Of a stretch of 64,000 nt of DNA, positions 23,298-40,634 are shown in pieces. The position numbers and the translations under genes are program-made. The notes beneath the pieces were generated by a model. That model saw only the letters and a list, made by a program, of their open reading frames with translations, had not been told where the DNA came from and did no database searches. Source of the stretch: Fibrobacter succinogenes (lineage in GTDB: Bacteria; Fibrobacterota; Fibrobacteria; Fibrobacterales; Fibrobacteraceae). How positions within the stretch are numbered: the stretch's first letter is position 1; each line of letters begins with the position of its first letter. The stretch is taken from positions 62,001-126,000 of the forward strand of contig NZ_CACZDK010000006.1 of NCBI RefSeq assembly GCF_902779965.1, written 5' to 3'.

Positions 23298-23576
23298 TTA
23301 TGCTGCTAATGTTGAATTGATTTCGGGAGAGCGGCTAGTTCGAATCCGTCCTGATAGAATTAGATATTGCCGTAGGTAACGGAAATAATCGCGACGGAAA
23401 TTATCGTATGTTTTGGAATCGCTCGGCGTGCTGGGAACCACGATGGTTTTATTTGCGCCCTTCGCCTTGTGACGAATGATGACGTGTTTACCGTGGCGGA
23501 CGATTTCCCATTGGCCAGAATGGATCAGGTTTTGAACGAAATCGCGGATGTTTTTATCGCTAGAAATATAAGGCAT
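23298..23576 (-). CDS. HicA-like mRNA interferase toxin, orphan
   Basis: A 92-residue protein with the HicA/dsRBD-like pattern: helix, then G-x-W-E-I-V-R-H-G-K-H (catalytic His candidate H31), a strand VIIRHKAKG, a VVPSTPSD turn and a final helix NFRRDYFRYLRQ. HicA proteins cleave mRNA and are normally paired with HicB; no HicB-like gene is next to it. The C-terminal ~20 residues are polar and probably outside the fold. It may be a stand-alone RNA-binding protein or a toxin that lost its antitoxin. Confidence 0.55.
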   Translation of the reverse strand: MPYISSDKNIRDFVQNLIHSGQWEIVRHGKHVIIRHKAKGANKTIVVPSTPSDSKTYDNFRRDYFRYLRQYLILSGRIRTSRSPEINSTLAA

Positions 23577-23715
23577 GTAGACCTCCTGGGTTGAACGCCT
23601 GGGAAATGCGAAAATCGTGCCAAAAGAAAAAATGATGAAATAAAACGAATTTTAAATGGTTACTGCTAAAAAATAACTGCGCTGAAATTACAATTGAGAA
23701 AAAATTTTCGTATTA

Positions 23716-23735
23716 TAAGAAAAAATATTCTTATT
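23716..23735. promoter_or_regulatory. Inverted repeat upstream of the sigma-54 promoter, possible activator site
   Basis: ATAAGAA (23716-23722) and TTCTTAT (23729-23735) form 7-bp arms with a 6-bp spacer, about 60-80 bp before the -24 element. Position and symmetry suit an enhancer-binding protein, but the sequence is AT-rich and symmetry could be chance. Confidence 0.35.
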
Positions 23736-23795
23736 TTAATTGCTTGTGCTGTGGGAAATTATTTGATTTTGATAAAAAAACTTATTTTGTTTTGT

Positions 23796-23810
23796 TGGCA
23801 TGAGTTTTGC
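23796..23810 (+). promoter_or_regulatory. Sigma-54 (-24/-12) promoter of the defence operon
   Basis: TGGCAT-N5-TTGC: the GG at 23797-23798 and the GC at 23809-23810 have exactly the 10-bp separation required for RpoN, and 9 of the 10 consensus positions of TGGCAC-N5-TTGC match. It lies 48 bp before the first gene, placing the transcript start near 23822 and leaving room for the AGAGGAG ribosome site. The last gene of the operon encodes a sigma-54 activator. Confidence 0.8.
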
Positions 23811-23858
23811 GAATGAAAGAAGGTATTTTTAACTGCAACAAAAAGAGGAGTTGTTATT

Positions 23859-24557
23859 ATGGCTTTTGATCCGTCTAAATACACCATTGCCAAGGCTCGC
23901 CCGCTTCCGGTGATTCTGATGCTTGACAGAAGTGGCAGTATGGAAGGTGAAAAGATTCTCCAGCTCAATGCTGCTGTGAACGAAATGATTGAGTCGTTCA
24001 AAACGGCTGGTCAGGGTGAAGTTGATGTCAATATCGCTGTCATCAGTTTTGGTAATGGAGGTGCAACTCTTGATTTGAAACTTCAGTCTGTTTCTACAAT
24101 TGAAAGCCTTCTTTGCTTGCAGGCTGATGGTATGACGCCTATGGGCATGGCGCTCCGTATGGCGAAGGATATGATTGAAGATAAAGACGAAATTCCCTCG
24201 AAGGGCTATCGTCCTGCAGTCGTTCTTGTTTCGGATGGAGCTCCTAATGATGACTGGGAAAAAAACATGGAAGATTTTGTCGGTAATGGACGCAGCTCTA
24301 AGTGCGAACGCTTCGCCATGGCAATTGGAACGTCTCAAGATGATCCTGTACTGAATAAGTTCCTTAGTGGTACAGAAAATAAGGTGTTCCTTGCTTCCGA
24401 AGCAAGCAAGATTCGTGACTTTTTCAAGTTCGTGACGATGAGTGTTTCTGTACGTAGTCGTTCGCAGAATCCTAATGCACTCCTTCCTGCATTGTCTAAT
24501 CCTTCTGCTCCGTCTCAGTTAGAAGATTTGGCTAAGGAATTGGGCTTCGACTTGTAA
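23859..24557 (+). CDS. TerY-like vWA-domain protein (first gene of defence operon)
   Basis: A 232-residue von Willebrand factor A domain of the TerY type. A complete MIDAS metal site is visible: D-R-S-G-S (D23, S25, S27), Thr93 in DGMTPMG, and Asp126 in VLVSDGAPND. vWA proteins of this group appear beside a PP2C phosphatase and a Ser/Thr kinase in tellurium/stress and defence loci, probably as a metal-dependent scaffold or phosphoprotein partner. The next three genes are exactly a second vWA, a PP2C and a kinase. A strong AGAGGAG site lies 8 nt before the ATG, 17 bp before the second vWA gene. Confidence 0.85.
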   Translation: MAFDPSKYTIAKARPLPVILMLDRSGSMEGEKILQLNAAVNEMIESFKTAGQGEVDVNIAVISFGNGGATLDLKLQSVSTIESLLCLQADGMTPMGMALRMAKDMIEDKDEIPSKGYRPAVVLVSDGAPNDDWEKNMEDFVGNGRSSKCERFAMAIGTSQDDPVLNKFLSGTENKVFLASEASKIRDFFKFVTMSVSVRSRSQNPNALLPALSNPSAPSQLEDLAKELGFDL

Positions 24558-24574: not shown

Positions 24575-25021
24575 ATGAAAGAGCTGTGTGTTATTGTTGA
24601 TGTTTCTGGCAGTATGTATGTCATGGGGAAACCTTTGATTATTGGTGGTATCTTGCAGACTCTTTCTGCTCTCGAAAAAATGGTGAATGAAGCAAATTCG
24701 TTCTCTGTTGTAAAAATGCAATGGGACGGTAGCGAGGCGGGGTTTGAAGCTCTTATCGAAAAATGCGATAAGAAAAATTCCTTACTTTTGACCGATGGTT
24801 ATTCTTTGTCCGATTCTTGTCGTAAATCGCGCGTCATAAAGAATTTTTTTGAAGATTCTAAAGATTCGTTGTACGTAGTTCTTTGCGGAGGCGATGCGCT
24901 AGATATATCATCTCATAGAGAATTTTCAAGAGTGAATGTGGTTCATGCCGAAGATATTTTGAAAGTTGTAGAAATCTTATTTGCAAAACAAGAGTGTTCT
25001 GCTGAAGAAGAGGGTTGGTGA
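24575..25021 (+). CDS. Small vWA-like protein with DxSGS motif
   Basis: A 148-residue product beginning MKELCVIVDVSGSMYVMG, a vWA first strand with the D-x-S-G-S metal motif at residues 9-13. It is about 60 residues shorter than a full vWA fold. A second acidic loop appears in SLLLTDGYSLSD, but the Thr element seen in the first vWA protein is not obvious, so the metal site may be incomplete. It could pair with the preceding vWA or act as a regulatory subunit. Its TGA overlaps the PP2C ATG (TGATG). Confidence 0.75.
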   Translation: MKELCVIVDVSGSMYVMGKPLIIGGILQTLSALEKMVNEANSFSVVKMQWDGSEAGFEALIEKCDKKNSLLLTDGYSLSDSCRKSRVIKNFFEDSKDSLYVVLCGGDALDISSHREFSRVNVVHAEDILKVVEILFAKQECSAEEEGW

Positions 25022-25743
25022 TGTTTGGATTTGGACGTTGCTTTGCGTGTGGTTCTAGCGTAATTGGACCATCTCATTTATTGCACGGAATCGTCAACCA
25101 AGATGCATTCCTTTTCAAAAAAAGAAGAAAGTATTCTCTCTTTGTCGTTTCAGATGGTATGGGCAGTAAGCCTTTTTCCGATATCGGCTCGAAAATGGCG
25201 TGTGAATCGGTGTCTAGGGAAATTGAACGTTTTGTGAAGAATCTCCATGAACGTGTTTCTGTTTCGAGTTTGTTCGAAAATATCGTTGAAACTTGGAAAA
25301 AGTCTGTGTTGCCGCACGAGGCAAAAGAATGTTCTGCAACATGTTTGTTTGTGCTTGTTACAAAAAATAAAATTTTAGTAGCAAGGCTTGGCGATGGAAT
25401 GGTTTGTCTTTTGGGTAATGAAGCTTCGCAAAGTATCGCATTGACAGATGATAAAGAAGGCTCGTTCTCCAATGCCACTTGTTCGTTGTCTGATTCTTTG
25501 GCCGTCCAGGAATTTAGATATGCTGTTTATGATCGATTACTTTATAAGGGCGTGGTCCTTTCAACGGATGGAATTTCGGCCGATATGAATTCGGGAAAAG
25601 AGATTCCGTTTGCAGAGGATATTTTTTGCGAATTGAAAAAAATGTTTTTCTGGAAGAGAAACTCTTTTTTGCGGAATGTAATGAATCATTGGCCTGTGCC
25701 GCACCATACGGACGATAAAACTCTTGTTGTAGCGGGGGTGTAA
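25021..25743 (+). CDS. PP2C-family serine/threonine phosphatase
   Basis: A 240-residue metal-dependent phosphatase. PP2C motifs are in order: NQD with D28, VVSDGMGS with D45-G46, ARLGDGMVCLL, GVVLSTDGISAD and the final HHTDDKTLVV. The metal-binding Asp residues are kept, so it should be active. The ATG at 25021 is preferred over an in-frame TTG two codons earlier because it overlaps the upstream stop. Together with the kinase it would set the phosphorylation state of one or more operon proteins. Confidence 0.85.
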   Translation: MFGFGRCFACGSSVIGPSHLLHGIVNQDAFLFKKRRKYSLFVVSDGMGSKPFSDIGSKMACESVSREIERFVKNLHERVSVSSLFENIVETWKKSVLPHEAKECSATCLFVLVTKNKILVARLGDGMVCLLGNEASQSIALTDDKEGSFSNATCSLSDSLAVQEFRYAVYDRLLYKGVVLSTDGISADMNSGKEIPFAEDIFCELKKMFFWKRNSFLRNVMNHWPVPHHTDDKTLVVAGV

Positions 25744-27227
25744 TGCAAGATACTGATGAAAATGTTTTTTATTTGCTGGATAGCGACGATAAACGCGTTG
25801 AACTAAAGAGTGTGCTAGATTCCTACGGCTATTCGCATGTGATTGTTAAGAAACTCAGTCAGGGTGGGCAAGGTGTAGTGTGCTTGACTAAAAATCCTGA
25901 AGTGGTGATAAAATTTGCCTTGGATTCTAAAGGGCGCCTTATTAGCAAAGACAAGAATAAAGATACGTTTTTAAAGAATGATTTTTCTTTTCAGGCGATA
26001 ATGCAAAAACCTTTCCCGGAAAGACTTCATTTAGCTTATCCGATGGCTCGCCTTGCTGATTATTCTGGATATGTCATGCGCCTTATGGGGGATATGGCAA
26101 GTTTTTCTAGTCTTGTTCCTGTAGATAAAGATGGAATAAAGCGCATGTCAGAAGATGGTGGGCATAGAAGGCGTTTTGATTTGCTTGCAAAACTTGCCGC
26201 GTTGTTGGCTAAAATCCACAGCGTTGGGATGGTTTATAGCGACTTGTCTCCAAACAATGTGTTTATCACAAAAAATTCGGCGTTGGTGACACAGAATGTG
26301 TGGCTTATAGATTCCGATAACGTGTTTATTTCTGGCGAAGATGTTGATAAACTAGTTTACACTCCGCGTTATGCTGCTCCGGAACTTTTCAAGGGTGAGC
26401 CTTGTACTCAATGGAGCGATGTTTATTCGTTTGCGACGCTTGCGTTTGAATCGCTTGCGGCACTCCACCCGTTTGCGGGTGAAAAAGCAAATAGCGGAAG
26501 TGATGGCGATGACTGGGATGCATCTGTGAAAAAAGATGAAGAGCGAAAACTGCCGGATGTTGATCCTCGGTATTCTGGAAAAATTCCTTGGGTTGAGGAT
26601 GTTGAAGATGATGCGAATCATACAAAGGATGGCTTGCCTCGACAGAATTTCTTGACCGATGAAACGTTCACGTTATTCAATATGACTTTTTCAGAAGATG
26701 GTCGTGAATGTCCCAAAAATCGTGCGACGGCGGTACTTTGGGCGAGGGCATTTGCTCATTCTCATGCACAGAGCGTATGTTGTCCTGTTTGTCACATGAG
26801 CTTTATCTATGACGAAAAACAAAAGAAATGTCCTTGGTGCGGAAAAAAATTACCGCGGATTATTGCTTTAAAAGATGAAAGCGGATCAGTCGTATTCGCT
26901 CATGAGTTGAATTTCAATGATGAGGGGGCGTGCACTGCTTTTCCGTTGCCGAAACATATTTTTACGCCGTTTTCCATAAATGATTTTTTCTGTGGTGCTT
27001 TTGAGGTCCGTTCTGTAAATTATAACGGTTTTGGAATTGAATTTTCTTTGCAACCTCTATTTGCTACGGATTACGATTGCTTTATCGTTATTGACGGAAA
27101 AGAAGAAAAAATCACAGGACGTTATATTCTACAATTAAAAAATAAAGAAACTTATTCGATTAAGTGCGTCTGTAGGAATGGTTGGACTCGGACCCTCGCG
27201 ATTGAAATCTCGGAGAAAAGCAAATGA
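25743..27227 (+). CDS. Ser/Thr protein kinase with C-terminal zinc ribbon
   Basis: A 494-residue kinase. Gly-rich loop LSQGGQGVV (residues ~38-46), ATP-binding Lys in VVIKFA (K57), catalytic loop YSDLSPNN (D167, N172), a modified DFG-position LIDSDN (D190) and YAAPELF. A stretch of acidic residues is inserted in the C-lobe (about 250-300). After the kinase comes a zinc ribbon C347-x2-C350...C363-x2-C366 and a ~120-residue beta-rich tail with no family match. The catalytic residues support activity. It overlaps the PP2C stop by 1 nt and the helicase start by 4 nt, so phosphatase, kinase and helicase are translationally coupled. Confidence 0.88.
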   Translation: MQDTDENVFYLLDSDDKRVELKSVLDSYGYSHVIVKKLSQGGQGVVCLTKNPEVVIKFALDSKGRLISKDKNKDTFLKNDFSFQAIMQKPFPERLHLAYPMARLADYSGYVMRLMGDMASFSSLVPVDKDGIKRMSEDGGHRRRFDLLAKLAALLAKIHSVGMVYSDLSPNNVFITKNSALVTQNVWLIDSDNVFISGEDVDKLVYTPRYAAPELFKGEPCTQWSDVYSFATLAFESLAALHPFAGEKANSGSDGDDWDASVKKDEERKLPDVDPRYSGKIPWVEDVEDDANHTKDGLPRQNFLTDETFTLFNMTFSEDGRECPKNRATAVLWARAFAHSHAQSVCCPVCHMSFIYDEKQKKCPWCGKKLPRIIALKDESGSVVFAHELNFNDEGACTAFPLPKHIFTPFSINDFFCGAFEVRSVNYNGFGIEFSLQPLFATDYDCFIVIDGKEEKITGRYILQLKNKETYSIKCVCRNGWTRTLAIEISEKSK

Positions 27228-30200
27228 TGGATGTGAATCATATTGAGACTATTCCTTTTTACGAGAATATTCAAGCAGTGTATGCTGTTTCGTCCGTTTC
27301 TCATGTTGAAATGGGGCTGGCAACGATTTTAAGAAACCCTGATCGCCATAATTATCTTATCCGCACAAGCAAAGGGGTTGTGGAATTTGATTTTAGGAGT
27401 AAGCAGGATAAGGAAAATATTAATTCCTGTTTTTGTCAAGGCCGTTCTCACATTTGCAATGTGAAATCGGTTTCGCATGACGGTAGCTTCATTTTTGATT
27501 TTTATGTATTTGCGGGATCTGTTGATGATTTTGGCGATGTCGTGATTTTAGCCGAGGAAGAAAAACTTGGTAAACTTCAGGGTAAAAAATCAAGTATTGA
27601 AGAATGTCGAAAAAAACTTGCTGAAAATTGCACGATAAAGCTGAATGGTGAATCTTATTTTATCATGCAAGGGGATTATGAACCTCTGAAAGATGATGAA
27701 GAGGATGCGGAACATGATGAAACGAGAAAAGCAGAACTTGGTGGCGCTTTTTCAATTTTGTGTAACCATTTTGGAAAATGCTATGCTGTGAAAGTTCAGC
27801 AGAAATGCTTGTCATCGACAGGAACTGCAAAATACTTTACAGTGACGGGGACTACTCCTCGTAAAAATATTCGTCCTGCTTGCAATTTTCATTTGATAAA
27901 AGCAAACCTGACTTTTTCGGATCAGAGAACGGAGGCTTCTGAATACAATATTGAAAAACTCAAAAATCTAATTGAAAAAAGCGGAAGCTATTTAAAAGCA
28001 TGGCGTGAATATACTGCTGCTCGAGGGAACCGTATTTTGGCTCAGGCTCGAAAATTTGGTGTTTTGCACTATGTTGAGTATACTCCGATTTCGCAGGATT
28101 CCGTTAGGCTTTATTTTAAAGCAAATATTTCTAATAAAATTAGAGAGTCTTCTGTAGAAGAACTTATTCTTAGCCCGAATTCGAAGGAACTCCCACTTTT
28201 TTTGCAAGATGAAAAAAGCGATTTTCTCGACTATTGCGAAAAGAAGTTTTCGGCGGAGAAGGAGCGTAAAGAAAAGGAGAAAAATAAAAAATTAGATAAT
28301 TCCCAAGACGATGAAGTCGTTTGTCCTATTGTTGATTATAAGGACAACTGGATTCGGGTTTCGATTTCGGCGGGAAATATTCCTCACAAGGGATATGTTG
28401 TTATGTCCATGGTTGGCGAGGAAAGTCAGATTAATCGTCAGCAGGAAGCGTGGAAGCTGGTTTCTAGTGGACAAGCTGGAATAAATTCATTGGGGAATAT
28501 TCTGGAAGGTAGCTTTGATTTTATACCATCTGGTAGCGCCCCTTCGAAGTTGCATATATCTAATCGCGTGAGGGAAAAAATTTTCAAAAATCCGCCAACG
28601 GATCGCCAACTTGAAGCGATTAATGTGGGGCTATCTACTCCAGAAATTGCTCTTATTCAGGGACCTCCGGGAACGGGTAAGACGACTGTCATAACGGCGA
28701 TTCTTGAAATTTTGAATGAGGTTCAGGATAAACGTGGTGTAACTGCGGGGCGTGTCTTGGCGACTTCATATCAGCATGATGCTGTTGAAAATATGATTGA
28801 ACGTATTCGAGTGAATGCCTTGCCGACATGGAAATATGGAAAGCGTCGTAATTCTCAAGGGAATTACAATGACCATATAGATTCTTGGTGCAGCGAAATC
28901 GAGGAACGAGTTCTTTCTATCCATCCTGATGTTCAGATTTCACATGAAGAAGAAATTCTAGCTGAAAAAATTGCTGAATATAGAATTTCGCCATTGCCAG
29001 AAAATAAAGAGAATCTACTTGATTATATTGGGCTTCTCCCTGTATCAGAGGACTTGGCTTCAGAGGCTCGGAATCTTTTGTTGCGTAATAGCAAAGAATC
29101 ATATAGTTCTGATAAGATCCTGCTTAGAAAAATTCATTCGCTTAGAACGACTGAAAAGTCATATTCTGATGATGGTGTGAACCGTGTAAAAGAATTGTAT
29201 TTCGCACTAGAAAAAAATTGGCTGCCAGAACATAAAGCATGGGAATCTTTTTTAATGGATTTGATTGAGGGTTCTTCTGTGTTGAGCCTGCTCGAGCAAC
29301 TTGTAAAACTTGCCGAATTGAAGATCGAATTGCTTGAAGAATTTTCGCCAAGGCCTGCTTATTATGTGGCAGAAGTTGATGACGATGTCATTTCGTTGTG
29401 CAATAAGGTTGTAGATTTCTTGACTCTTCTTCGCAGTAAGAAAAGTAAGAAAGACTTGATTATTGCTGATTGGATAGAAGCTTTGCGTACGGGGCATCAG
29501 GCTTTTGCACGTGCGATAAAGGACTGCGATTTTGTTTATGCGGCAACTAGCCAGCAATCGGTAGGTAAAGATATTGCTCGCCAAAAGAAATCTGTTGAAT
29601 TGGTGAATAGCCCTTATGTACGGCTGTACGATACCGTTATTGTAGATGAAGCCGCCCGTGCGACACCGCCAGATTTGCTTATCCCGATGTGCAATGCTGT
29701 TAAACGTATCATTCTTGTGGGGGATCATCGTCAACTTCCACAATTGGTAGATGATGACTTGTGTAGTGATGTCTATAAAAAGGCTCAACAAGATATTGAA
29801 TCCCAAGATGAATCGACTTCGGATGAAGAAAATGTCGGTGATGCTTACGAAAAAGCGTTTAAATTAAGCCTTTTTGAATTGTTGTTCAAGAAACTCAAGG
29901 ATTTGGAAGAAAGGGATGGAATAAAGCGTACTATTACATTGGATAAGCAGTTCCGTATGCATCCTGTTTTAGGAAAATTCTGTTCGCGTCTTTTTTATGA
30001 ACCTTATGGGGAGGGGTATGAATCGCCTCGTCCGGCAAGTGAATTTACTCATAATCTCCCTGGAATTGAAAATAAGGCTGCTGTTTGGATTGATGTCCCT
30101 AAAGAATGTGGTAAAGAACAGAAATACGGAACGAGCCGAATTCGTGAGTGTGAAGCTGACTGTATTGTTGAAAAAATGATGGAATTTGTTCGGAGCCAAA

Positions 30201-30598
30201 GTGCTGTTTCTAGAGAAAAAAAACTGAGTTTTGGTATAATTACGTTTTATAGCGCTCAACGGGATTTAATCAAGCAGAAACTTAGACGTTACGAAAAAGA
30301 ACTGAAAAATTCCGTCACTTATAAAGTGGGAACCGTCGATGCGTTTCAGGGAATGGAATTTGATGTCGTGTTTCTTTCTGTTGTCCGCTCAAACGGTGTG
30401 ATTGATTTCTTGACTCCCAATCGACTTTGCGTTAGTATGTCTCGTCAGAAAAAGGTTCTTATTGCTGTCGGATGCAGTGATTTTATGACTTCAGCGGAAT
30501 CACGAAATCAAAAAATTCCGGCGATGGCGGAGTTTTATGATTTATGTGCAGGAAAGAATGACGAAGGATATGGAGCGGTGTTGACATGGAAAAAATAA
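27224..30598 (+). CDS. Large SF1 helicase (Upf1/DNA2-like)
   Basis: A 1124-residue superfamily 1 helicase. Walker A is GPPGTGKTT at residues 480-488, Walker B DEAA at 808-811 (VIVDEAARATPPDLLIPM), then GDHRQLPQL, QFRMHP, and C-terminal VGTVDAFQGMEFDVVFLSVVRSN and SMSRQKK. This motif set is of the Upf1-like subgroup, which works on RNA or DNA. A long (~320 residue) insertion of mixed helical sequence separates motifs I and II. Residues 1-440 are N-terminal and unassigned. ATGA overlap with the kinase, 13-nt overlap with the HEPN gene. Confidence 0.88.
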   Translation: MMDVNHIETIPFYENIQAVYAVSSVSHVEMGLATILRNPDRHNYLIRTSKGVVEFDFRSKQDKENINSCFCQGRSHICNVKSVSHDGSFIFDFYVFAGSVDDFGDVVILAEEEKLGKLQGKKSSIEECRKKLAENCTIKLNGESYFIMQGDYEPLKDDEEDAEHDETRKAELGGAFSILCNHFGKCYAVKVQQKCLSSTGTAKYFTVTGTTPRKNIRPACNFHLIKANLTFSDQRTEASEYNIEKLKNLIEKSGSYLKAWREYTAARGNRILAQARKFGVLHYVEYTPISQDSVRLYFKANISNKIRESSVEELILSPNSKELPLFLQDEKSDFLDYCEKKFSAEKERKEKEKNKKLDNSQDDEVVCPIVDYKDNWIRVSISAGNIPHKGYVVMSMVGEESQINRQQEAWKLVSSGQAGINSLGNILEGSFDFIPSGSAPSKLHISNRVREKIFKNPPTDRQLEAINVGLSTPEIALIQGPPGTGKTTVITAILEILNEVQDKRGVTAGRVLATSYQHDAVENMIERIRVNALPTWKYGKRRNSQGNYNDHIDSWCSEIEERVLSIHPDVQISHEEEILAEKIAEYRISPLPENKENLLDYIGLLPVSEDLASEARNLLLRNSKESYSSDKILLRKIHSLRTTEKSYSDDGVNRVKELYFALEKNWLPEHKAWESFLMDLIEGSSVLSLLEQLVKLAELKIELLEEFSPRPAYYVAEVDDDVISLCNKVVDFLTLLRSKKSKKDLIIADWIEALRTGHQAFARAIKDCDFVYAATSQQSVGKDIARQKKSVELVNSPYVRLYDTVIVDEAARATPPDLLIPMCNAVKRIILVGDHRQLPQLVDDDLCSDVYKKAQQDIESQDESTSDEENVGDAYEKAFKLSLFELLFKKLKDLEERDGIKRTITLDKQFRMHPVLGKFCSRLFYEPYGEGYESPRPASEFTHNLPGIENKAAVWIDVPKECGKEQKYGTSRIRECEADCIVEKMMEFVRSQSAVSREKKLSFGIITFYSAQRDLIKQKLRRYEKELKNSVTYKVGTVDAFQGMEFDVVFLSVVRSNGVIDFLTPNRLCVSMSRQKKVLIAVGCSDFMTSAESRNQKIPAMAEFYDLCAGKNDEGYGAVLTWKK

Positions 30599-32655
30599 TT
30601 GGTGGAAAAGAATGGAATAGTCCATTCCCGGTGAGCGTTCGTCAGAAAATTTTGTGGCCTTGCTACGAGTTTATCGTTCAGGCGGAAGGCATCGATAGCT
30701 ACGAAAGAAACATCATCGAAGAGATAATTCTTCGCCTTGCAAATATCAAGGAGACTGATACTAAAGCAATTGCCTTGGATACCGGCCTTGAAGAAGATCT
30801 CGTCTCTTTTATGCAATCCCGTCTCGAACAGCATGGGGCCCTTGATAATTGCTATCGAATAACAGATGTAGGGTTGCTGAGGTTGGGTGAAATGATAGAA
30901 AACCATAGAAGCTCGATTCATGTCTATGTGGATGCCGTATCCGGAGAACTAATCCCTTATTTTAGCATGTTGAATGATAATGAACAGTTTAGGTATTCGT
31001 TTGGAAAAGATGACGTTGATGATGCGGGTAGGTCATTTTTTAGGTACAAAGGTTATTCTTCTGCGGGGTTGGAATCTGATGAATTAGAAATAGCTTTTAA
31101 GCTCCATTATAATAAGGAGTATAATGAAATTCCCTCAAAAGGCGATGTGACAGCGATGCTTCATAAGCTTTATCCTAATAGGGACGGTCTCTGTGTTTCC
31201 GTGGAATTAAATCAAAGCAAGTCTAAAAATCTGAGATGGTTTTTGATTGATGTTTTTCAACCGGAAGGTTCATCACGTGATTGGGTGTTTACTGATGGTT
31301 TTGGCAAAATTACATCGTTTTTCTCGGTGAAAAGAATCCAAGATGAAGTTGACAGAAAATATATTTCTGAACTTCGTGAAAAATTGCAGGTAAAAACAAA
31401 TTTCCAAGCAAAAACTTCTATAAAACTGGCAGAAGAAAAGTATCCGATGTTAAAAGATAAGCTTGATTCTGCTCAGAAATGTATGAAGGAACTTAGACTG
31501 TTTGTCGATTCGCCTGATAAGGAAGAAACTCTGCACTCTGCGATGACCGATTCTGTTATCTATTTGACTCAGCTTATGGAATGGGTCCTGTTCTATATCT
31601 TGCATAAAAAATCAAACGAGTATCATGTGAGAATGGTTCTCACTGAAAATAGAAAGACGTTCAATAATAAAGAGTCTTACCATATTAATGGTGGATTGGC
31701 TACGCGGTGTGCTCGGAATCTTGGCTTTGAAGTTGGCGTGACTGAAAAAAAATCGTTCTGTCAACGTAATGGAAAACTTTGGAATTCGTTTGTAGAAACG
31801 CCTAAGTTATTACCTCTTTTGGATGTCCTTTTGATTTCTTTATATGAAAAAGGATGGCTTCAGGATTTTGCTCGTGATTATTCTGATTTTTTGTGTATTC
31901 TTGTTGACTTGAATGATAAGCGAAATCAGGGATTTCATAGCGGTTCTGTGAACCGTATGGATGAATTTTCGGCCCATATCGAAGAGGCGTATCAAGAAAT
32001 TCTTGATTTTATGAAAAAAGGATTGAATGTAAAGATTAATGAATCAAGTGAATTTACCTTTGAAGAAAAAATCACTTTGCAGAATGAACGGAATTCTGCG
32101 ATAACCCGTGTAGAACAGTCTCTTGGCTTTGCTCTTTGCCAAACATTAGATGCTACTTTGATTGGTTTTGTTACGGATATGGAACGTCGTGGAACAGATT
32201 CTAAAACTTTAAATAATGCGATCATCCTTGATCAATACCGAATTTTGGAGAATTTGTTTAAATCGGTAAATGAGTGCCTTGATAATGAATTGGTACATTC
32301 AGATTGGCTTGCAAAAGTCAAAGGTGCCGGTTTTGGTATACCAGAAGAAAAGGAATTTAAAACATTACTTAGGACTAAAGAAGAAAAGATTCGTTCTGCT
32401 TTGAATAGAAAAAATTCTTCTATGAATGCGGCTTGTATCGCTTTTTGCATTCTTGCAGATAAAAACTTGTTGCGTGGTATATCATCGAAGTGGCATGATA
32501 TGTTGGCAGATGTTTGCTATGTCGTAAACAAACGATCTCATGGCGAAATTCCAACTTCGATAGATTGTGATAGAGCGTTAAAGATAAAGGAACGAATTGT
32601 TGAACTGATTCGCTATTTTGCTGAAAAGGGATTTTTAACAAGTCGATTGTCTTAG
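30586..32655 (+). CDS. Tandem HEPN-domain protein, predicted ribonuclease
   Basis: 689 residues without a named family. Residues ~36-105 look like a winged helix (EEIILRLANIKETDTKAIALDTGL..). Two C-terminal helical units end in HEPN-type signatures. The first is DLNDKRNQGFHSG with R446-N447-x3-H451, the R-x4-H active site of HEPN RNases. The second is VVNKRSHGE (647-652), the same spacing with Arg replaced by Val, hence probably inactive. Each is followed by the expected amphipathic helix (EEAYQEILDFMK; ALKIKERIVELIRY). HEPN pairs with one dead copy are known from toxin and CRISPR RNases. It would cut RNA when the operon is triggered; the target is unknown. A 40-nt gap follows before the McrB-like gene. 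Confidence 0.65.
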   Translation: MEKIIGGKEWNSPFPVSVRQKILWPCYEFIVQAEGIDSYERNIIEEIILRLANIKETDTKAIALDTGLEEDLVSFMQSRLEQHGALDNCYRITDVGLLRLGEMIENHRSSIHVYVDAVSGELIPYFSMLNDNEQFRYSFGKDDVDDAGRSFFRYKGYSSAGLESDELEIAFKLHYNKEYNEIPSKGDVTAMLHKLYPNRDGLCVSVELNQSKSKNLRWFLIDVFQPEGSSRDWVFTDGFGKITSFFSVKRIQDEVDRKYISELREKLQVKTNFQAKTSIKLAEEKYPMLKDKLDSAQKCMKELRLFVDSPDKEETLHSAMTDSVIYLTQLMEWVLFYILHKKSNEYHVRMVLTENRKTFNNKESYHINGGLATRCARNLGFEVGVTEKKSFCQRNGKLWNSFVETPKLLPLLDVLLISLYEKGWLQDFARDYSDFLCILVDLNDKRNQGFHSGSVNRMDEFSAHIEEAYQEILDFMKKGLNVKINESSEFTFEEKITLQNERNSAITRVEQSLGFALCQTLDATLIGFVTDMERRGTDSKTLNNAIILDQYRILENLFKSVNECLDNELVHSDWLAKVKGAGFGIPEEKEFKTLLRTKEEKIRSALNRKNSSMNAACIAFCILADKNLLRGISSKWHDMLADVCYVVNKRSHGEIPTSIDCDRALKIKERIVELIRYFAEKGFLTSRLS

Positions 32656-32698
32656 GATAAATCGCTATTGAGTTTTAAATATAAAATGGAGAAAAATG

Positions 32699-35431
32699 AT
32701 GTCAGAAAATAATGAAGAAAAATATACTAAAGATGATGTGAAAAAATTAATGGAAAAAGCAAAAACGAAAGTTGAATCGCAGAAAGCTGAAATAGAAAGA
32801 AAGAACGTTGAAATTAAGAACCTGAGCAAACAACTTGAATCTTATCGGTTGCGTGAATCTTCTATTCCTACAGAAGAAGAAATAGAAACTTTTAAGAAGG
32901 ATAAAGCTGACATTGCAGCTCGTAAACTTGCTGTTGAAACTCAAGAAAAGTCTTTTAACGCAATAAAAGATTCTCTTGTAGCCGCAGCGATGAAACTTGC
33001 TGAAAAGAAAGCAGAACTTTTTGCTGAAGCCGAAAAGCTTGCTGCCGATTTGCATGACAAGCGAATTTCTGAAACAGAAACTGAAATCCAGAAAATGCAT
33101 GATTTGGCGAATGGCGAATGCCAAAAAATGCGTGAGGAAGCATCCGTTTATGCAGAAAGGGTTCGCAAAGAAACTGATGTCTCGAATGAAAAAATCCGCA
33201 AGGAGGCCATTGAGGCCGCTCAAAACATTCGCAGTGACGCCCAGAAGGAGTATGATCGAATTGTTAGTGAAGCTAAAGAAAAAGCCAAGGAAATTGCTGC
33301 AAGTGCTGTAGTGGATACGGAAAATCTTAAAAAACAAATTAAGGATTTGGAAGAAAGAAATGCCGAGCTTTCTGGCAAAAAAACAGTGCTTTATGAGTTG
33401 AATCAGGCCCTTACTGAAGACAAAACGAATCTTTCTGAAGCATTAAAAGAGCAAAAAGCGGAATTTGATAAAATTACGGCCGATTATGAAAAGACTATGG
33501 CGAACTTTGAAACTCTTCGAGTTCAACTTGAATCGAGTGGTAAGAATGTAGAAACGTTTTCTAAAGAAATTGCCGGTATGGCCCTTCGCGAACAGGACCT
33601 TAATCAAAAGAAAGAGGAATTGGACAAGCGAGAAAATAAACTTTCTTTTAAAGAAGAATACAATAAAAAAGAATCTGACGATCTTGATCAAAAAGAAAAG
33701 GATATTGATGCTGAAGTCGAAAAACGTTATCCTGATATATTGGCTTATAAGGATCGCGAAATACAGACTTTGAAAGGTGAACTCCAAAGATTGCGTGATT
33801 CGATCTTCGATAATGCCAATATCATTGCGAAATTTGAAGATTTGAAGGCTCAATTTGGTGACAAAAATCCGACGGAGATCCTTTTGGATTATGAACGGGT
33901 GAAGGGTGAACTTGCTCTTGCCTTGGAAAAGGTGAACAATACGCCGTCTTATGTATTGCAGAAAACGGCTGAAGATTTAAAGGTACAAGAGGAAAAACTT
34001 CAAGAACGTATAGACGCGGTTGCTGAAAGAGAAAGTCAAAGTGCAAAATTGCAGGAATCATTTAATCATGCTTTGTCAGAAAAAGATGCTCTTGCACAAA
34101 AGTGTACGAATCTTGAAAAAGACAAGAAAATTGTGGAAGAACAGCTTGCTCGCCTTCGTTCTACTTATGAAAATCCTGCTGAACGTGAAGATCGCATTAA
34201 GGCTATCAATGAACCGTTGATTAAGGAAACTTTAGAGCGTAACACGGAAAACGTCTCCGAAATAGATTGGCTTAATGGAATCAATAAAAAAATTGAAAAA
34301 AGCGGTTTGCATTTCCCGAGCCGCATTTTGAAAGCTTTCCATACGGCTCTTAAAACTTCTGAAATGTCCCCGCTTACTGTTCTTGCGGGTGTGAGCGGAA
34401 CGGGTAAATCGGAACTTCCTCGTCTTTACTCTCGTTTTGGCGGTATCAATTTCCTTTCGATGCCTGTGGAACCGAACTGGGATTGTCAGGAAGCGATGCT
34501 TGGTTATTACAACTCTATTGATAATTGCTTTGAACCGACAGATATGCTTCGCTTGCTTGCGCAGTCTCAACGTAATGTCGATGACCAGCAGGGAATGAAC
34601 GATGTAATGACAATGATTCTTTTGGATGAAATGAATCTTGCCAATGTTGAACTCTATTTTGCGGATTTTTTAAGTAAGCTTGAAACGCGTCGCGGCCTTG
34701 CGGATAATGACCGTTCGTTCCCAAGAATTGGTGTGAAAATCGGATGTAAAATGGCTGATTTCCCGCTTAAGCTGGGCCGCAATGTGCTTTGGACAGGTAC
34801 AATGAATAACGACGAAACGACAAAGACTCTTTCGGACAAGGTTCTTGACCGTGGAATCGTCATTAATTTCCCGCGTCCTAAAACATTGATTCGCTCTAGG
34901 AAAAATAGCGTACTTGCAGAGCCGTCTCCGCTCTTGTTGAAGTCTAATTGGACTTCTTGGGTGAATAAAGCGATTGCTTTTGAGGATACCCTTATAAATA
35001 GTTATAAGGAAAAAATCGAGAAAATTAATGAACAGCTTGGAAAAGCTGGGCGTGCTCTCGGTCATCGTGTTTGGCAGTCTATTGAAAACTACATGTCTCT
35101 TTATCCTGATGTTATTGCATACGAGGGTAAATCTCGAGAACTTGCAATGGATAGGGCTTTCGAAGATCAACTTGTTCAAAAGGTAATGCCGAAACTCCGT
35201 GGGCTTGAAACGCGTGGCTCGCAGAACGAAGTGCTTGAAGCCATTAAGGGTATTATTCCTGAAACGCTCCATGAAGATTTCAAGAATGCCGCTGAACAGA
35301 ATTACGGACAGTTTATCTGGACTACATCGGGATATTTACTGCGTGACGATGACGTTGTGCTGGATGCTAAAAAAGATGATTTGAAACCTGAAGAGAAGAA
35401 GGGTTTGCAAAAGGATGCCGGTAGAGCTTAG
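32699..35431 (+). CDS. Coiled-coil McrB-like AAA+ NTPase
   Basis: 910 residues from the ATG that has GGAG 7 nt upstream; an ATG one codon earlier is possible. Residues ~10-480 are an almost unbroken charged coiled coil (heptads of Lys/Glu with repeated EKAK, KKE, EKLQE). Then comes a McrB-type AAA+ domain: Walker A GVSGTGKSE at about 565-572, Walker B ILLDEMNLANVELYFADFL, and TGTMNNDE...LDRG, matching the M-N-x-x-D signature of McrB GTP-hydrolysing proteins. The coiled coil replaces the modified-DNA-binding domain of McrB, as described in CoCoNuT-type McrBC relatives. Its last 17 nt overlap the next gene, the McrC-position partner. Confidence 0.85.
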   Translation: MSENNEEKYTKDDVKKLMEKAKTKVESQKAEIERKNVEIKNLSKQLESYRLRESSIPTEEEIETFKKDKADIAARKLAVETQEKSFNAIKDSLVAAAMKLAEKKAELFAEAEKLAADLHDKRISETETEIQKMHDLANGECQKMREEASVYAERVRKETDVSNEKIRKEAIEAAQNIRSDAQKEYDRIVSEAKEKAKEIAASAVVDTENLKKQIKDLEERNAELSGKKTVLYELNQALTEDKTNLSEALKEQKAEFDKITADYEKTMANFETLRVQLESSGKNVETFSKEIAGMALREQDLNQKKEELDKRENKLSFKEEYNKKESDDLDQKEKDIDAEVEKRYPDILAYKDREIQTLKGELQRLRDSIFDNANIIAKFEDLKAQFGDKNPTEILLDYERVKGELALALEKVNNTPSYVLQKTAEDLKVQEEKLQERIDAVAERESQSAKLQESFNHALSEKDALAQKCTNLEKDKKIVEEQLARLRSTYENPAEREDRIKAINEPLIKETLERNTENVSEIDWLNGINKKIEKSGLHFPSRILKAFHTALKTSEMSPLTVLAGVSGTGKSELPRLYSRFGGINFLSMPVEPNWDCQEAMLGYYNSIDNCFEPTDMLRLLAQSQRNVDDQQGMNDVMTMILLDEMNLANVELYFADFLSKLETRRGLADNDRSFPRIGVKIGCKMADFPLKLGRNVLWTGTMNNDETTKTLSDKVLDRGIVINFPRPKTLIRSRKNSVLAEPSPLLLKSNWTSWVNKAIAFEDTLINSYKEKIEKINEQLGKAGRALGHRVWQSIENYMSLYPDVIAYEGKSRELAMDRAFEDQLVQKVMPKLRGLETRGSQNEVLEAIKGIIPETLHEDFKNAAEQNYGQFIWTTSGYLLRDDDVVLDAKKDDLKPEEKKGLQKDAGRA

Positions 35432-38400
35432 TACAATATATAAGCAGATTGCTACAGGAAATGGAAAACAGTACGAGTTGCTTTTTTCCATTGTTGGGAT
35501 GTTGTCCTCTGTAATGGAATTTGATCCTGTTACAGATGAACCTCTCCCAATGACTGTTGATGATATTCTGTATGGCCTTTCTTCAGTTGATGCTAAGAAT
35601 ATGGATTGGCAGAATGATCGTTTACAGCATATTGTGTGTTTTGCATCTACCGCAGTCCGTAATCTAATCGATTTGCTCCATGAAAAAAATCTTCGCGAGC
35701 ATCGGATTACCCGCCCGGAACAAATTCGTGAAGTCGATAGCCGCAGCATGATGTGGCTTGCTAAGAAGCCTGGTTTTACGATAAAGCAAAAAATTGCTTC
35801 TGAACAGCGTATGATGGGGGTGTATCATACAACAAGTCTGGATACTGCCGAAAACCGCTTGTTAAAGGCTTTTATGCAAAAGCTGGAAGAATTGCTTTTG
35901 GAAAAGGAAAATGCTTGTCGCAAGTGTGAACTTTCCATGAGCGAAGATTTCGAGCATTTTGTGTCTATGGTGCATCGGTGGTTAAAAAGCGATGAAGCTT
36001 TGTTGATTGGCAAATGGAATAATACGCCGCCGAATAATACGCTTTTGAATGACAAGAATTATCGAAAAATTTGGAAAGCGCATTTGATGCTTCAAAATTT
36101 GAATGATCAAGTGCAGCGAGATTTGGAACGTATTGGAACTTTAAAGAATGCGGCTTGTTTTTGGCTTTTTGTTGCCAGAATGAACCGTTACAATGAGGTT
36201 CGCTTTCTACAGAAAGTTTTTTTCCCGGAAAGTAAATCGTTGAGTTTTACGAAAAAAGAAAATTCCCTTGTAGGGTACATTAATTTATCGTCGTGGAAAA
36301 AGTTGAAATGTACTTTGCTGGAAAGTTCTATTGATTTGTCTATCGGAGATGCTAAAAATAGTCTTTCTTTTAATCAAGAAATAACTGAATTTGCTGCAGT
36401 ATTTTCATTTGTTGAAAAAAAATGCGGTGAAATTTTATTAGGAAAAAATATTGGCTTTCCAAAGAATTTTGCAGATGGAAACCAGCAAATGGTCGAAGTT
36501 GCTGCTGTTGACCTAAGTTCAATATTGCCGTCATGTTCATTTGGCAATGGACTTAAAGGTCAATTTTCTAAAAAGCTTGTATGCCAATCGCAATGTATAG
36601 AAAAAAAATGGTATCCTTGCTCGTCCGCTCGTTCTAAATTGATTTTTACCAACTCAGAGGATTTAAAGACCTTTTCGATTCATTCAATTTTTGATAGTGC
36701 TTTATTGCCCGTTTCGGATTCCGAGGATAATAAGACGGATGTTGAAAAAGCATGTGCAAATTTTGCCAAGACTATAAAGGACGAATTGCATTGCAAAAAA
36801 TGCCTTTATGTTACAAGCGATGATGTAGATGATTTTTCGCCGAGCGTGAATGCATTTAAGTTCTACATGAATTCCGCTTTTTCGAATACCGAAATTTTGC
36901 CTAGAAGTATCGCTATTTTATTTGCAAGTCTTCAAGATGTTCAGGCTCGTTTCCGTAAGGAGGACGAAGTCACTGTAAGGACAATTTTTGATGATTACGA
37001 AATAAAGTCCAAGATTCGCATTGATTATGATAAGCAACTTGCAAAAGAAAATCCAGAAACGAAAGGTTTTGTATTTAAACGTTTGTGCGTCTCAAGGGAA
37101 AATCTAAAGAAAAAAAATCTTCAAAATATAATTCCGAAGAATATGGAAAATCTTTTAACATTGCATGATTCCAATTTGTTAAAAGATTCTTTTTCCGTTG
37201 ATGAATTTCATTTTATACGTAAGGTTGGAATTCAAAAGATTTCTGCGGCTAAGAAGGAAATAGTCTTTTTTGCGGATAATGATTCTTCCGTAGGGGCTGT
37301 TAAATATGACCGCTTGCAGAAAATCACGCCCGATATTCCTTTATGGCTTGACGTTTTGCCGAAATTGAGCATGGTTGATTCAATGGGTGAAGAGCATGTG
37401 CTTGTTGAACCGGAGAAAGTGTCTATTCGTCCTGTTGTTGGGAAGCCCATTGATATTCCTATTTCATGGAAATTTGGTTTCCCACAAGGTAAAGAGTTTT
37501 ATGAATTTCCACTTATTCAGGGGGATAATAAGGAATCTTCGAAGTATTTTGCTTTTATTCAAGATTCGTTGTTCCCGCTGGAGCATGAAACTCAATGTCG
37601 GCTGAAACTGACATACACGTATGGTAAACCGCTTCCTTATGATCTTGAATTTCTTCCTGTTTCTAAGACAGCTGAATTTAGGTCGGTCTCGGTTAAATGG
37701 GAGAACAAGTCGCGCAAGGATTATATCCATGATATGCCTGTCCCCAATTTTGTGCGTGAATATACTTGGGAGGATATGCAATCTGTACAAAAACGTGATG
37801 CTAAAGAGACATCCGATTTGGTAAACGATTGGTTGCCTGCGGAATATGAAAAAATTGAGTATTCAGGTTCTTATAAGCTTGTTAGGGAAATTCCTTCGAA
37901 TCGTGGAGGCGAAAGAGTATTCTTTATTGATTTGAACCGTTCAATAAGTGCGATTTGTCCGATTGATAATCGACAAAATGCTCAAATTGGGAAAGATGTC
38001 TGGTGTTGCTTAAAAGTTGATTCCCAAGGACGTGTTAAAGCTGTTGATCCCCATGTTATTGGCTCTAATTGGAATGATACTGAGTTTAAAAAATCGCTCC
38101 GTTTCCCGGCGATAATGGTTTGGAATAATGGAAGAAGTATAGAGGATGATGCATGCCCTCAGAATTTTCAGGAGAAGACAAAAAAAATATTGGATAAAAT
38201 GAAGGAAGTCTTACAAAATTCGGATGTTCCCGAATGTGTGAAACGTGAATTTAAGTTCTTCCTTTCTTGTATGCATAAAGATGCTCCGGAATGGTTCTAT
38301 TCGGAACTCCCCGATATCCTTAAAAAATTAGAATCATATTTTGACTATCCTAATTGGATTGCCTATGCTCTTGGTGATTGTTCAATGGAATGGCAAATAA

Positions 38401-38960
38401 AATTGTTAGAAAGTACAATGCTGTTGCTTGAAAATTCCCAAAAGGCGGAATATGCGATAAGGGTCTTGGCTGTTGCGTTGTGGCGTGTAAATAGTTTTGT
38501 ATTTAATTTAAATTCGTATGATGTAAAAGTAATTTTGAAGGCCATTCGTGAGCAATTTGAGAAAATGAAAACGCAGGAAAATAACAAGTTAAAAAATTCG
38601 CAAAGGGAATTATTGCTGAAACCTAAAAACCAAAGGGGTTTGACTTTGAAAAGTGTTCGACTTTATTCAGCTTGCTTAGAGTGCATTGTAGCTCTGTGTC
38701 GCCTGCGAAAAACGAAAAACGGTAAAGATGCGGATGAAAATATGTTATCTGCACTTTCCCCTGCTGTAAATCCTAATGTGAAAGGTATTGTTGAAAACAT
38801 GAGACTTATAAAAAGCGGTATAAAGACATTCCTTACATTTAATATCGAACGTTCTTCTGATGATCAGACTCCAGAGTTGTTGTATGCGGCTCGTGGATAT
38901 TTATCGGGATCAATAGATTCTAATGCGATTAAGGTTTTGGAAGCTGATTTTAGTGAATAA
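35415..38960 (+). CDS. DUF2357-like McrC-position partner protein
   Basis: 1181 residues. Residues ~60-170 (DRLQHIVCFASTAVRNLIDLLHEKN, then VYHTTSLDTAENRLLKAFMQKLEELLLEK) resemble the DUF2357/McrC N-terminal region, where a T-x-E-N-R-x-x-K helix is typical. The rest is mixed alpha/beta with a beta-rich middle (~600-830) and a helical C-terminus (~950-1181). I cannot find a convincing PD-(D/E)xK catalytic set, so nuclease activity is unproven; it may be divergent or lost. It sits in the McrC place, overlapping the McrB-like gene by 17 nt, which implies a complex. 17 bp before the regulator gene. Confidence 0.6.
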   Translation: MPVELSTIYKQIATGNGKQYELLFSIVGMLSSVMEFDPVTDEPLPMTVDDILYGLSSVDAKNMDWQNDRLQHIVCFASTAVRNLIDLLHEKNLREHRITRPEQIREVDSRSMMWLAKKPGFTIKQKIASEQRMMGVYHTTSLDTAENRLLKAFMQKLEELLLEKENACRKCELSMSEDFEHFVSMVHRWLKSDEALLIGKWNNTPPNNTLLNDKNYRKIWKAHLMLQNLNDQVQRDLERIGTLKNAACFWLFVARMNRYNEVRFLQKVFFPESKSLSFTKKENSLVGYINLSSWKKLKCTLLESSIDLSIGDAKNSLSFNQEITEFAAVFSFVEKKCGEILLGKNIGFPKNFADGNQQMVEVAAVDLSSILPSCSFGNGLKGQFSKKLVCQSQCIEKKWYPCSSARSKLIFTNSEDLKTFSIHSIFDSALLPVSDSEDNKTDVEKACANFAKTIKDELHCKKCLYVTSDDVDDFSPSVNAFKFYMNSAFSNTEILPRSIAILFASLQDVQARFRKEDEVTVRTIFDDYEIKSKIRIDYDKQLAKENPETKGFVFKRLCVSRENLKKKNLQNIIPKNMENLLTLHDSNLLKDSFSVDEFHFIRKVGIQKISAAKKEIVFFADNDSSVGAVKYDRLQKITPDIPLWLDVLPKLSMVDSMGEEHVLVEPEKVSIRPVVGKPIDIPISWKFGFPQGKEFYEFPLIQGDNKESSKYFAFIQDSLFPLEHETQCRLKLTYTYGKPLPYDLEFLPVSKTAEFRSVSVKWENKSRKDYIHDMPVPNFVREYTWEDMQSVQKRDAKETSDLVNDWLPAEYEKIEYSGSYKLVREIPSNRGGERVFFIDLNRSISAICPIDNRQNAQIGKDVWCCLKVDSQGRVKAVDPHVIGSNWNDTEFKKSLRFPAIMVWNNGRSIEDDACPQNFQEKTKKILDKMKEVLQNSDVPECVKREFKFFLSCMHKDAPEWFYSELPDILKKLESYFDYPNWIAYALGDCSMEWQIKLLESTMLLLENSQKAEYAIRVLAVALWRVNSFVFNLNSYDVKVILKAIREQFEKMKTQENNKLKNSQRELLLKPKNQRGLTLKSVRLYSACLECIVALCRLRKTKNGKDADENMLSALSPAVNPNVKGIVENMRLIKSGIKTFLTFNIERSSDDQTPELLYAARGYLSGSIDSNAIKVLEADFSE

Positions 38961-38977
38961 AAACACGGTATTGAAAA

Positions 38978-40393
38978 ATGAAAGATAAGGTTACTCTACT
39001 CACATGGATGGCGGCTAATAACGATCCTCAGGCTTTAGAATCGTTGTTGAATCACTTAGATCAAAAATATAGCGTCGAAAAAGTCATATATCTTTATCAG
39101 AAGAAATATGTAAAAAAACTTGATGACGTCAAAAATATTTTTCCTGTTGAACCTTTTGAAGTCAATCTCAAAAATCCGACGGCGCATAAGGAAATCTATG
39201 AGGCTGTGAAAAATAATGTTCTCCCGTTGTTAAGTAGAGAACGTAATTTGATTGTCAATGTGTCTGCAGGGACTCCGGCAATGCATGCTGTTTGGCTCAT
39301 TTTGTATGCGGGTGGAAGTTTCCCTAATGGAACACTGTTGGTCTCGTCTCAAATTAATCGCGAAACGAGAGTGACGACTTGTGATAACGTAGATTTCCCG
39401 ATTACGACTTATTTGAGTGAGGTTCGTGAATTCGAACGTGAAAATCCTGATGTGCCTGTTTATCAGCCTGTGGCGAAATCGCTGGCGAGGAAAAACGCAT
39501 TCGAAAAAATAAGAGCTTATGCTGGTGTTACGGGAGTCCCGCTCCTGTTATTGGGAGAAAGGGGAATTGGTAAAAGTAGTGTTGTGGAATCTTTTGTATC
39601 AACGATAAAGAAAAAAGATGTTGTAACAGAGGCTTGTGGCTCTTTAGATTCAAATTTGGTTGAGTCTATTATTTTTGGGCATAAGAAAGGGGCTTTTACA
39701 GGAGCTGATAAAGATAAAAAAGGTATCCTGAAAGAAGCTGATGGAAAAATTCTTTTTTTAGATGAAATTCAGGATTTGCCGAAACCTGTACAGCGAAAAT
39801 TGGTGCGTACGTTGCAAGACAAAAAGCATCGCTATTGTCCGCTTGGTAGCGAGAAAGAAGAAGTTGCCGATATTGAACTTGTATGTGCATCGAATTTACC
39901 TGAAAAAGAATTGAAAGAAAAGTTGGATCCCGATTTTTATGACAGAATCTCTTTTTACAAGGTCGAGCTTCCTCCATTGAGAGAATGTCGCGAAGATTTG
40001 CTGGCGGATTGGCGTGGTGTTTGGAAAACAGCACGTCTCGATAGTTCGCCTGAAAATGCTCCAGAAGATGAATGCTTGATGAAGTTTTTTAAGAAGTCTA
40101 GCTTGCCGGGAAATTTCCGTAACTTGCAGTCTGTCGCCTATCAAATTATTGCATGGAACGGTAAAAAATCAATGGAAGAGATTCTGAAAGATATTTCTTT
40201 TGAGGATTTAAACGGAAAATCTTTTAATGTTGCCGATTATCCGGAATTCAAGGATAAAACATTGACAGAGGCGAGAAATTATTTCCAGCACAAGTTTGCA
40301 GAATATGCTTGTAGCAAGTACCGGACGCAAAGTGAGGCTGCGAAAGCTATTGTTTGTTCAACGAAAACTCTTCAAAATTTGATGAAAAAGTGA
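38978..40393 (+). CDS. RtcR-like sigma-54 activator with N-terminal CARF-like domain
   Basis: 471 residues. Residues ~1-155 form a Rossmann-like domain with NVSAGTPAMHAVWLILYAGG (S96-P100), the ligand loop expected of CARF domains of RtcR and CRISPR ring-nuclease families. Residues ~170-400 are an AAA+ sigma-54 activator domain: Walker A GERGIGKS (193-200), the RpoN-contacting GAFTGA loop (238-243), Walker B LFLDEI (259-264). The C-terminus SEAAKAIVCSTKTLQNLMKK is a Fis-like helix-turn-helix. RtcR itself is switched on by RNA fragments with 2',3'-cyclic phosphate ends. Here it should activate the operon from the promoter at 23796. Last gene of the operon. Confidence 0.85.
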   Translation: MKDKVTLLTWMAANNDPQALESLLNHLDQKYSVEKVIYLYQKKYVKKLDDVKNIFPVEPFEVNLKNPTAHKEIYEAVKNNVLPLLSRERNLIVNVSAGTPAMHAVWLILYAGGSFPNGTLLVSSQINRETRVTTCDNVDFPITTYLSEVREFERENPDVPVYQPVAKSLARKNAFEKIRAYAGVTGVPLLLLGERGIGKSSVVESFVSTIKKKDVVTEACGSLDSNLVESIIFGHKKGAFTGADKDKKGILKEADGKILFLDEIQDLPKPVQRKLVRTLQDKKHRYCPLGSEKEEVADIELVCASNLPEKELKEKLDPDFYDRISFYKVELPPLRECREDLLADWRGVWKTARLDSSPENAPEDECLMKFFKKSSLPGNFRNLQSVAYQIIAWNGKKSMEEILKDISFEDLNGKSFNVADYPEFKDKTLTEARNYFQHKFAEYACSKYRTQSEAAKAIVCSTKTLQNLMKK

Positions 40394-40399
40394 AAATAA

Positions 40400-40507
40400 T
40401 TATTGCTTTTCAATGATCATATGCCTCCGCACTTCCATGCGATATACAATGACTTGGAAGGAGTCTTTGAATTATCTACATTAGACCCAAGTTCATGTCA
40501 AAGATGA
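40400..40507 (+). pseudogene. DUF4160-like protein fragment
   Basis: Frame reads LLLFNDHMPPHFHAIYND then LEGVFELSTLDPSSCQR and a stop. N-D-H-x-P-P-H-F-H-A is the hallmark of DUF4160 proteins, usually ~80 residues long. There is no start codon or ribosome site and a stop closely precedes it, so this is a remnant. Confidence 0.6.
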
Positions 40508-40634
40508 TCACCGACCGATTGTTCAGCAACTTTCGAATTTGGACTTGTTCAAGGATTTCAAAGTTCAGGCTCGTACAATCGTGTGGAGCAACGGTGTCGA
40601 TTTCGCACCGGAGTTTATCAAGAGCTTGTCTTAG
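40500..40634 (+). pseudogene. DUF2442-like protein fragment
   Basis: Another frame reads VKDDHRPIVQQLSNLDLFK, DFKVQARTIVWSNGVDF and APEFIKSLS before a stop. F-x-x-x-x-V-x-x-x-T-I-V-W-x-N-G-x-D-x-A-P-E-F is the DUF2442 C-terminal signature. The N-terminal half is missing. DUF4160 and DUF2442 genes are usually neighbours, so a deletion seems to have fused the two remnants. Confidence 0.6.

Follow-up and report, generated by a model that had tools for sequence, protein, structure and literature searches.

A putative bidirectional sigma-54 control region at a CoCoNuT-like operon that ends in an RtcR_PspF1-type activator gene

The analysed stretch of 64 kb, referred to as the window, contains nine tightly spaced genes on one strand, located 3' of a promoter element at 23796-23810. 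Gene 1 (23859..24557, +) encodes a TerY-like von Willebrand A (vWA) domain protein of 232 aa and gene 2 (24575..25021, +) a second, shorter vWA-like protein with a DVSGS motif and without a Pfam match. They are followed by the genes of a PP2C-type phosphatase (gene 3, 25021..25743, +, counted from the first ATG at 25021; the listed open reading frame starts at a TTG at 25015) and of a Ser/Thr kinase with zinc-ribbon-like Cys motifs at its C-terminus (gene 4, 25743..27227, +). Gene 5 (27224..30598, +) encodes a CnuH-like helicase of the UPF1-like SF1 type, gene 6 (30586..32655, +) a CnuE-like protein with weak MkoB matches, gene 7 (32696..35431, +) a CnuB-like, McrB-like GTPase (PADLOC PDC-M26A, E=2.8e-34) with a long, charged, coiled-coil-like N-terminal region, and gene 8 (35415..38960, +) a CnuC-like protein with DUF2357, the McrC N-terminal domain. 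The last gene, gene 9 (38978..40393, +), encodes a sigma-54 activator. On the other side of the intergenic region, a HicA-like small protein of 92 aa is encoded divergently (23298..23576, -). Degenerate coding-like sequence with an HMPPHFH-type start, possibly the remains of a small gene, is found 3' of the operon at 40400-40630 of the window.

Judged by their sequences, genes 1-8 match the plan of Type II/III-A CoCoNuTs (Bell et al. 2024, PMC11090510), with which they share the TerY-P triad, the UPF1-like helicase, a HEPN-motif protein, an McrB homolog with an NxD motif and a DUF2357 protein. Among the traits of Type III-A, the combination of the helicase CnuH with the TerY-P triad is present in the operon and the NxD motif of the GTPase is found as MNNDE in gene 7; for the extensive coiled coil typical of this protein, weak SMC-type matches were obtained. 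CnuE of Type III-A has two HEPN domains. In gene 6, the HEPN-type motifs RNQGFH (RxxxxH) and RSH (RxH) were recognized by eye and no HEPN profile matched; because of these two motifs, Type III-A is favored. The CnuC of Type III-A combines DUF2357 with an Hsp70-like unit and lacks a PD-(D/E)xK nuclease; for gene 8, Pfam returned DUF2357 and no match to Hsp70 or a nuclease.

The predicted domain order of the gene 9 product is CARF-AAA-HTH, and the GAFTGA loop that the initial annotation had read in the ninth gene is located at residues 238-243. The protein belongs to the RtcR_PspF1 family (PADLOC CARF_AAA_HTH), whose profile matches it over its full length (residues 3-471, 511.9 bits), and is also matched by Pfam Sigma54_activat. 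An assignment to RtcR proper was ruled out by a score of 174.3 bits against the 650-bit cut-off of the RtcR equivalog NF038308. In the AlphaFold model (mean pLDDT 77), the N-terminus displays the strand and helix order expected of a CARF domain, with a strand pair at its end. A fold search with the whole chain listed activator matches only, from which the CARF part could not be isolated, and a profile of the N-terminal part reached Csm6 in the PDB at E=0.41 only. Scanning the genome contigs with the single protein yielded zero matches; the alignment-based scan recovered mostly general activators plus CARF-type matches such as L068-L071. Cas10 and SMODS, as makers of cyclic oligonucleotides, gave no match in the genome that carries the operon, which argues against such ligands without excluding them. 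Elsewhere, a distant RtcR_PspF1-like gene has a Cas10 palm match roughly 3 kb away (G090:C36:4350-4964; L204, L208).

The promoter element 23796-23810 (+) consists of the letters TGGCATGAGTTTTGC, that is TGGCATG-AGTT-TTGC, and agrees with TGGCACG-N4-TTGC at 10 of 11 fixed positions. An RpoN-type -24/-12 element 48 bp ahead of the first gene had been proposed in the initial annotation; this is confirmed by the GG at -24 and the GC at -12 in the exact fixed spacing, by the 48 bases up to the ATG at 23859 and by the presence of one rpoN copy in the genome (174 bits). The predicted transcription start is around 23822. In the 64 kb of the window, this is the single exact match to TGGCAYG-N4-TTGC. 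The looser form TGGCA-N6-TTGC occurs twice at an expectation of 0.9 and thus near chance frequency, so that the motif by itself is weak evidence; it is the position and the conservation described below that turn it into a strong indication of a sigma-54 promoter. When the intergenic region was shuffled with preserved dinucleotides, 4 of 5000 sequences reached the promoter score, and none of the 5000 also matched the score of the second, divergent site. The underlying weight matrix uses approximate weights taken from the textbook consensus rather than a published matrix. Further sites at 46493 and 46817 are located within a gene and were dismissed as chance.

The second -24/-12 element (TGGCACG-ATTT-TCGC; 23608..23622, -) points in the opposite direction and is located 31 bp ahead of the HicA-like gene, which is probably its target; the predicted transcription start is near 23596. 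The 92-aa protein is recognized by the PADLOC HicA-like profile (E=1.7e-13, 48 bits); its match to Pfam HicA_toxin remains below the cut-off (E=0.005), its single-sequence structure model is weak, and a fold search with that model gave no significant match. A -24/-12 site and the palindromes described below are found close upstream of the HicA-like gene in L162, L163, L167, L168 and L169, all of them from genomes with the activator. Neither was found close upstream in L164-L166, from genomes lacking the activator, where the HicA-like protein is 76-78% identical. Of the 30 loci with a HicA-like gene that were compared, only activator loci combine a high-scoring site with palindromes close upstream. 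In L015, the HicA-like gene and its site are separated by 383 bp with a small open reading frame in between. These patterns suggest that the toxin-like gene forms a second arm, regulated together with the defense operon.

Between the two divergent promoters, two palindromes of 20 bp are found, TTGAGAAAAAATTTTCGTAT (23694..23713) and ATAAGAAAAAATATTCTTAT (23715..23734). Both are putative upstream activating sequences, and their starts are 21 bp apart, close to two helical turns. With at most one mismatch, the pattern GAAAWWWWTTTC-N9-GAAAWWWWTTTC occurs once in the 4.09-Mb genome, namely at this locus; the reversed pattern, used as a control, does not occur in the genome even at up to three mismatches. 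Since the first palindrome consensus was drawn from the same loci, held-out matrices, from which the locus under test and its nearest relative had been omitted, are the fairer test. In each of the ten intergenic regions tested, they recovered the palindrome pair, and none of 1000 shuffles reached its score. Along the whole window, the held-out matrix scored 40.0 at 23694 and 13.4 at the next separate place. The pair at 23694-23734 is thus a probable binding site of the activator. In Vibrio plasmid relatives, the upstream palindromes, compared by eye, are different, so this type of binding site is not shared by the whole family.

In the phylum, the activator is present at an E-value of 1e-40 or better in 11 of 168 genomes, at 12 loci that are few and related. 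Conservation of the -24/-12 site in homologous operons had been set in advance as a test of the promoter, and a strong site was found adjoining the activator or its operon at all 12 loci, several of which have operons of unrelated gene content. The site ranks first or second in the respective stretch and among the top four in the window; the product of the upper bounds per locus is about 10^-26.6 if the kinship of the loci is ignored. Natural absence controls come from genomes that have no activator match at the same threshold. The operon type of L014 and L015 is also present in L199 and L200 (vWA proteins 64-69% identical to that of L014), where no comparable site was found before the first gene; the same holds for the more distant operon L201. 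As a positive control, elements of this form were recovered in the genome under study ahead of a gltB-like gene with a NifA-like gene nearby. At L057 (G000:C2:11826 and 12070), such sigma-54-like sites are divergent and precede gltB-like and membrane-protein genes, near a gene for a GAF-domain NifA-like protein. The activator gene closes the operon in the window and in L016, L017 and L018. In L014, L015, L019, L020, L022 and L024, it is divergent from the site, and in L021 and L023 it precedes the site. Feedback through the activator's own transcript is therefore not a fixed feature.

Beyond the phylum, an operon of a helicase, a protein of about 370 aa, a PLD protein and the activator, the latter again in the last position, is carried by Vibrio and Pontibrevibacter plasmids, and a Klebsiella record lists PLD and activator genes. 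The operons of L017 and L018 are similar to this plasmid type. The four-gene arrangement recurs on plasmids as well as chromosomes (L158, L160, L161, L017, L018, L068). Two proteobacterial relatives have promoters with a weaker -12 element, namely TGGCATG-N4-TTGA in L158 and TGGCACG-N4-TTGA in L160, and no clear promoter was found in a third (L161). In L068, AGGCACA-N4-TTGC is located a short way ahead of the helicase gene.

With high confidence, the intergenic region 23577-23858 is interpreted as a bidirectional sigma-54 control region driven by the gene 9 product. The earlier reading of a sigma-54 promoter heading a defense-type operon, with the matching GAFTGA activator encoded by its last gene, is supported, and sigma-54 control of the operon by its own activator is very likely. 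RpoN-RNA polymerase would be held inactive at the two divergent -24/-12 promoters, and expression would be low without an inducer. The activator would dock via its C-terminal HTH domain on the tandem palindromes, and a ligand or partner would lift the block imposed by the N-terminal CARF domain, upon which the GAFTGA-bearing AAA+ ring would open both promoters. The rightward output would be the CoCoNuT-like operon, presumably directed against viruses and including the activator gene, and the leftward output the HicA-like gene. As gene 9 is part of its own transcript, the response would be amplified.

If the activator were made solely from the promoter that it controls, its synthesis could never begin, so a basal source is required. 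This need is accommodated by a variant of the same model, considered an outside chance though well ahead of the other alternatives, in which sigma-70 provides basal expression, the unliganded activator represses via the palindromes and sigma-54 sets the induced level only. Two sigma-70-like matches do overlap the palindromes, but the number of such matches (3, at an expectation of 1.4) is near chance for so AT-rich a region. The search for a basal promoter likewise gave sigma-70-like matches at chance level (37 against 37.7), none of which stands out. It is very improbable that the sigma-54 promoter is real but responds chiefly to a different activator of the cell, such as a nitrogen regulator, with gene 9 acting elsewhere: the genome does have other sigma-54 promoters, such as that of the gltB-like gene close to the GAF-domain NifA-like gene, but the palindrome pair at up to one mismatch is confined to this locus, and the occurrence of the promoter in the genomes compared follows that of gene 9. 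Least probable of all is a chance -24/-12 match in an operon transcribed from an ordinary sigma-70 promoter, for which sigma-70-like matches at 23687-23716 (+) and 23739-23712 (-) and the second copy of the loose motif, within a gene, could be cited, but which is at odds with the position kept at 12 of 12 loci, the palindrome pair, the divergent second site and the absence of the element where the activator is absent.

The proposed control by gene 9 resembles that of rtcBA by RtcR in E. coli, where the AAA domain is restrained by the CARF domain and RtcR lacking its CARF domain is reported to be constitutively active (PMC9650030). Common to both are an activator of the CARF-AAA-HTH type, as predicted for gene 9, and a sigma-54 promoter accompanied by an upstream activating sequence, which is putative here. 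Unlike RtcR, gene 9 belongs to RtcR_PspF1 and scores far under the RtcR equivalog cut-off, and unlike rtcBA, the targets are of the defense type, the activator gene is located inside the target operon and the control region is bidirectional. The phage shock operon with PspF is alike in having a stress-responsive sigma-54 promoter and a related AAA domain; PspF consists of AAA and HTH domains only (PMC4012209), and its sensing and targets differ from those of gene 9.

Control of defense systems by RtcR-like sigma-54 activators is not wholly new. RtcR-like CARF proteins tied to restriction-modification were predicted to be sigma-54 activators of neighboring defense genes (Makarova et al. 2014, PMC4012209), a prediction that, in the available part of that paper, relies on protein domains and gene neighborhood without promoter analysis, in contrast to the cis elements described here. 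For CoCoNuTs, an RtcR-like protein was predicted to drive transcription (Bell et al. 2024, PMC11090510); in the systems described there, RtcR is encoded at the 5' end, most often in Type II, whereas it is the last gene here. The main text of PMC11090510 does not mention HicA, and its sole passage on promoters concerns internal promoters and not a -24/-12 site. What is added here is the evidence from cis elements, together with a divergent target of toxin-like type and a layout in which the activator comes last; in the literature searched, the coverage of which was incomplete, no report of these cis elements was found. The locus and its relatives provide the corresponding DNA elements, backed by natural absence controls, and thus DNA-side support for the protein-based prediction that some defense systems are sensor-induced rather than constitutive. 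With evenly balanced chances, the RtcR_PspF1 activators may constitute a general plug-in module, a ligand-gated sigma-54 switch for CoCoNuT-like, helicase-PLD and other operons plus the divergent HicA-like gene, self-amplifying where the activator is encoded last. The short intergenic region is a defined place in which to seek the CARF signal by means of a reporter.

Two further observations concern sites of this kind. A small protein with an MCGCFFC motif is recurrent near sigma-54 sites (L016:2534..2223 and L019:18131..17805); its copy in L019 has no match in Pfam. In L202, a perfect palindrome pair and a strong -24/-12 site (7732, -, and about 7798; G150:C38) are located on a contig other than that of the activator. 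Downstream of the site, a stretch of some 500 bp lacks any obvious gene and is followed by three paralogs of the sigma-70 family, an arrangement that would be compatible with a possible sigma-54 to sigma-70 cascade.
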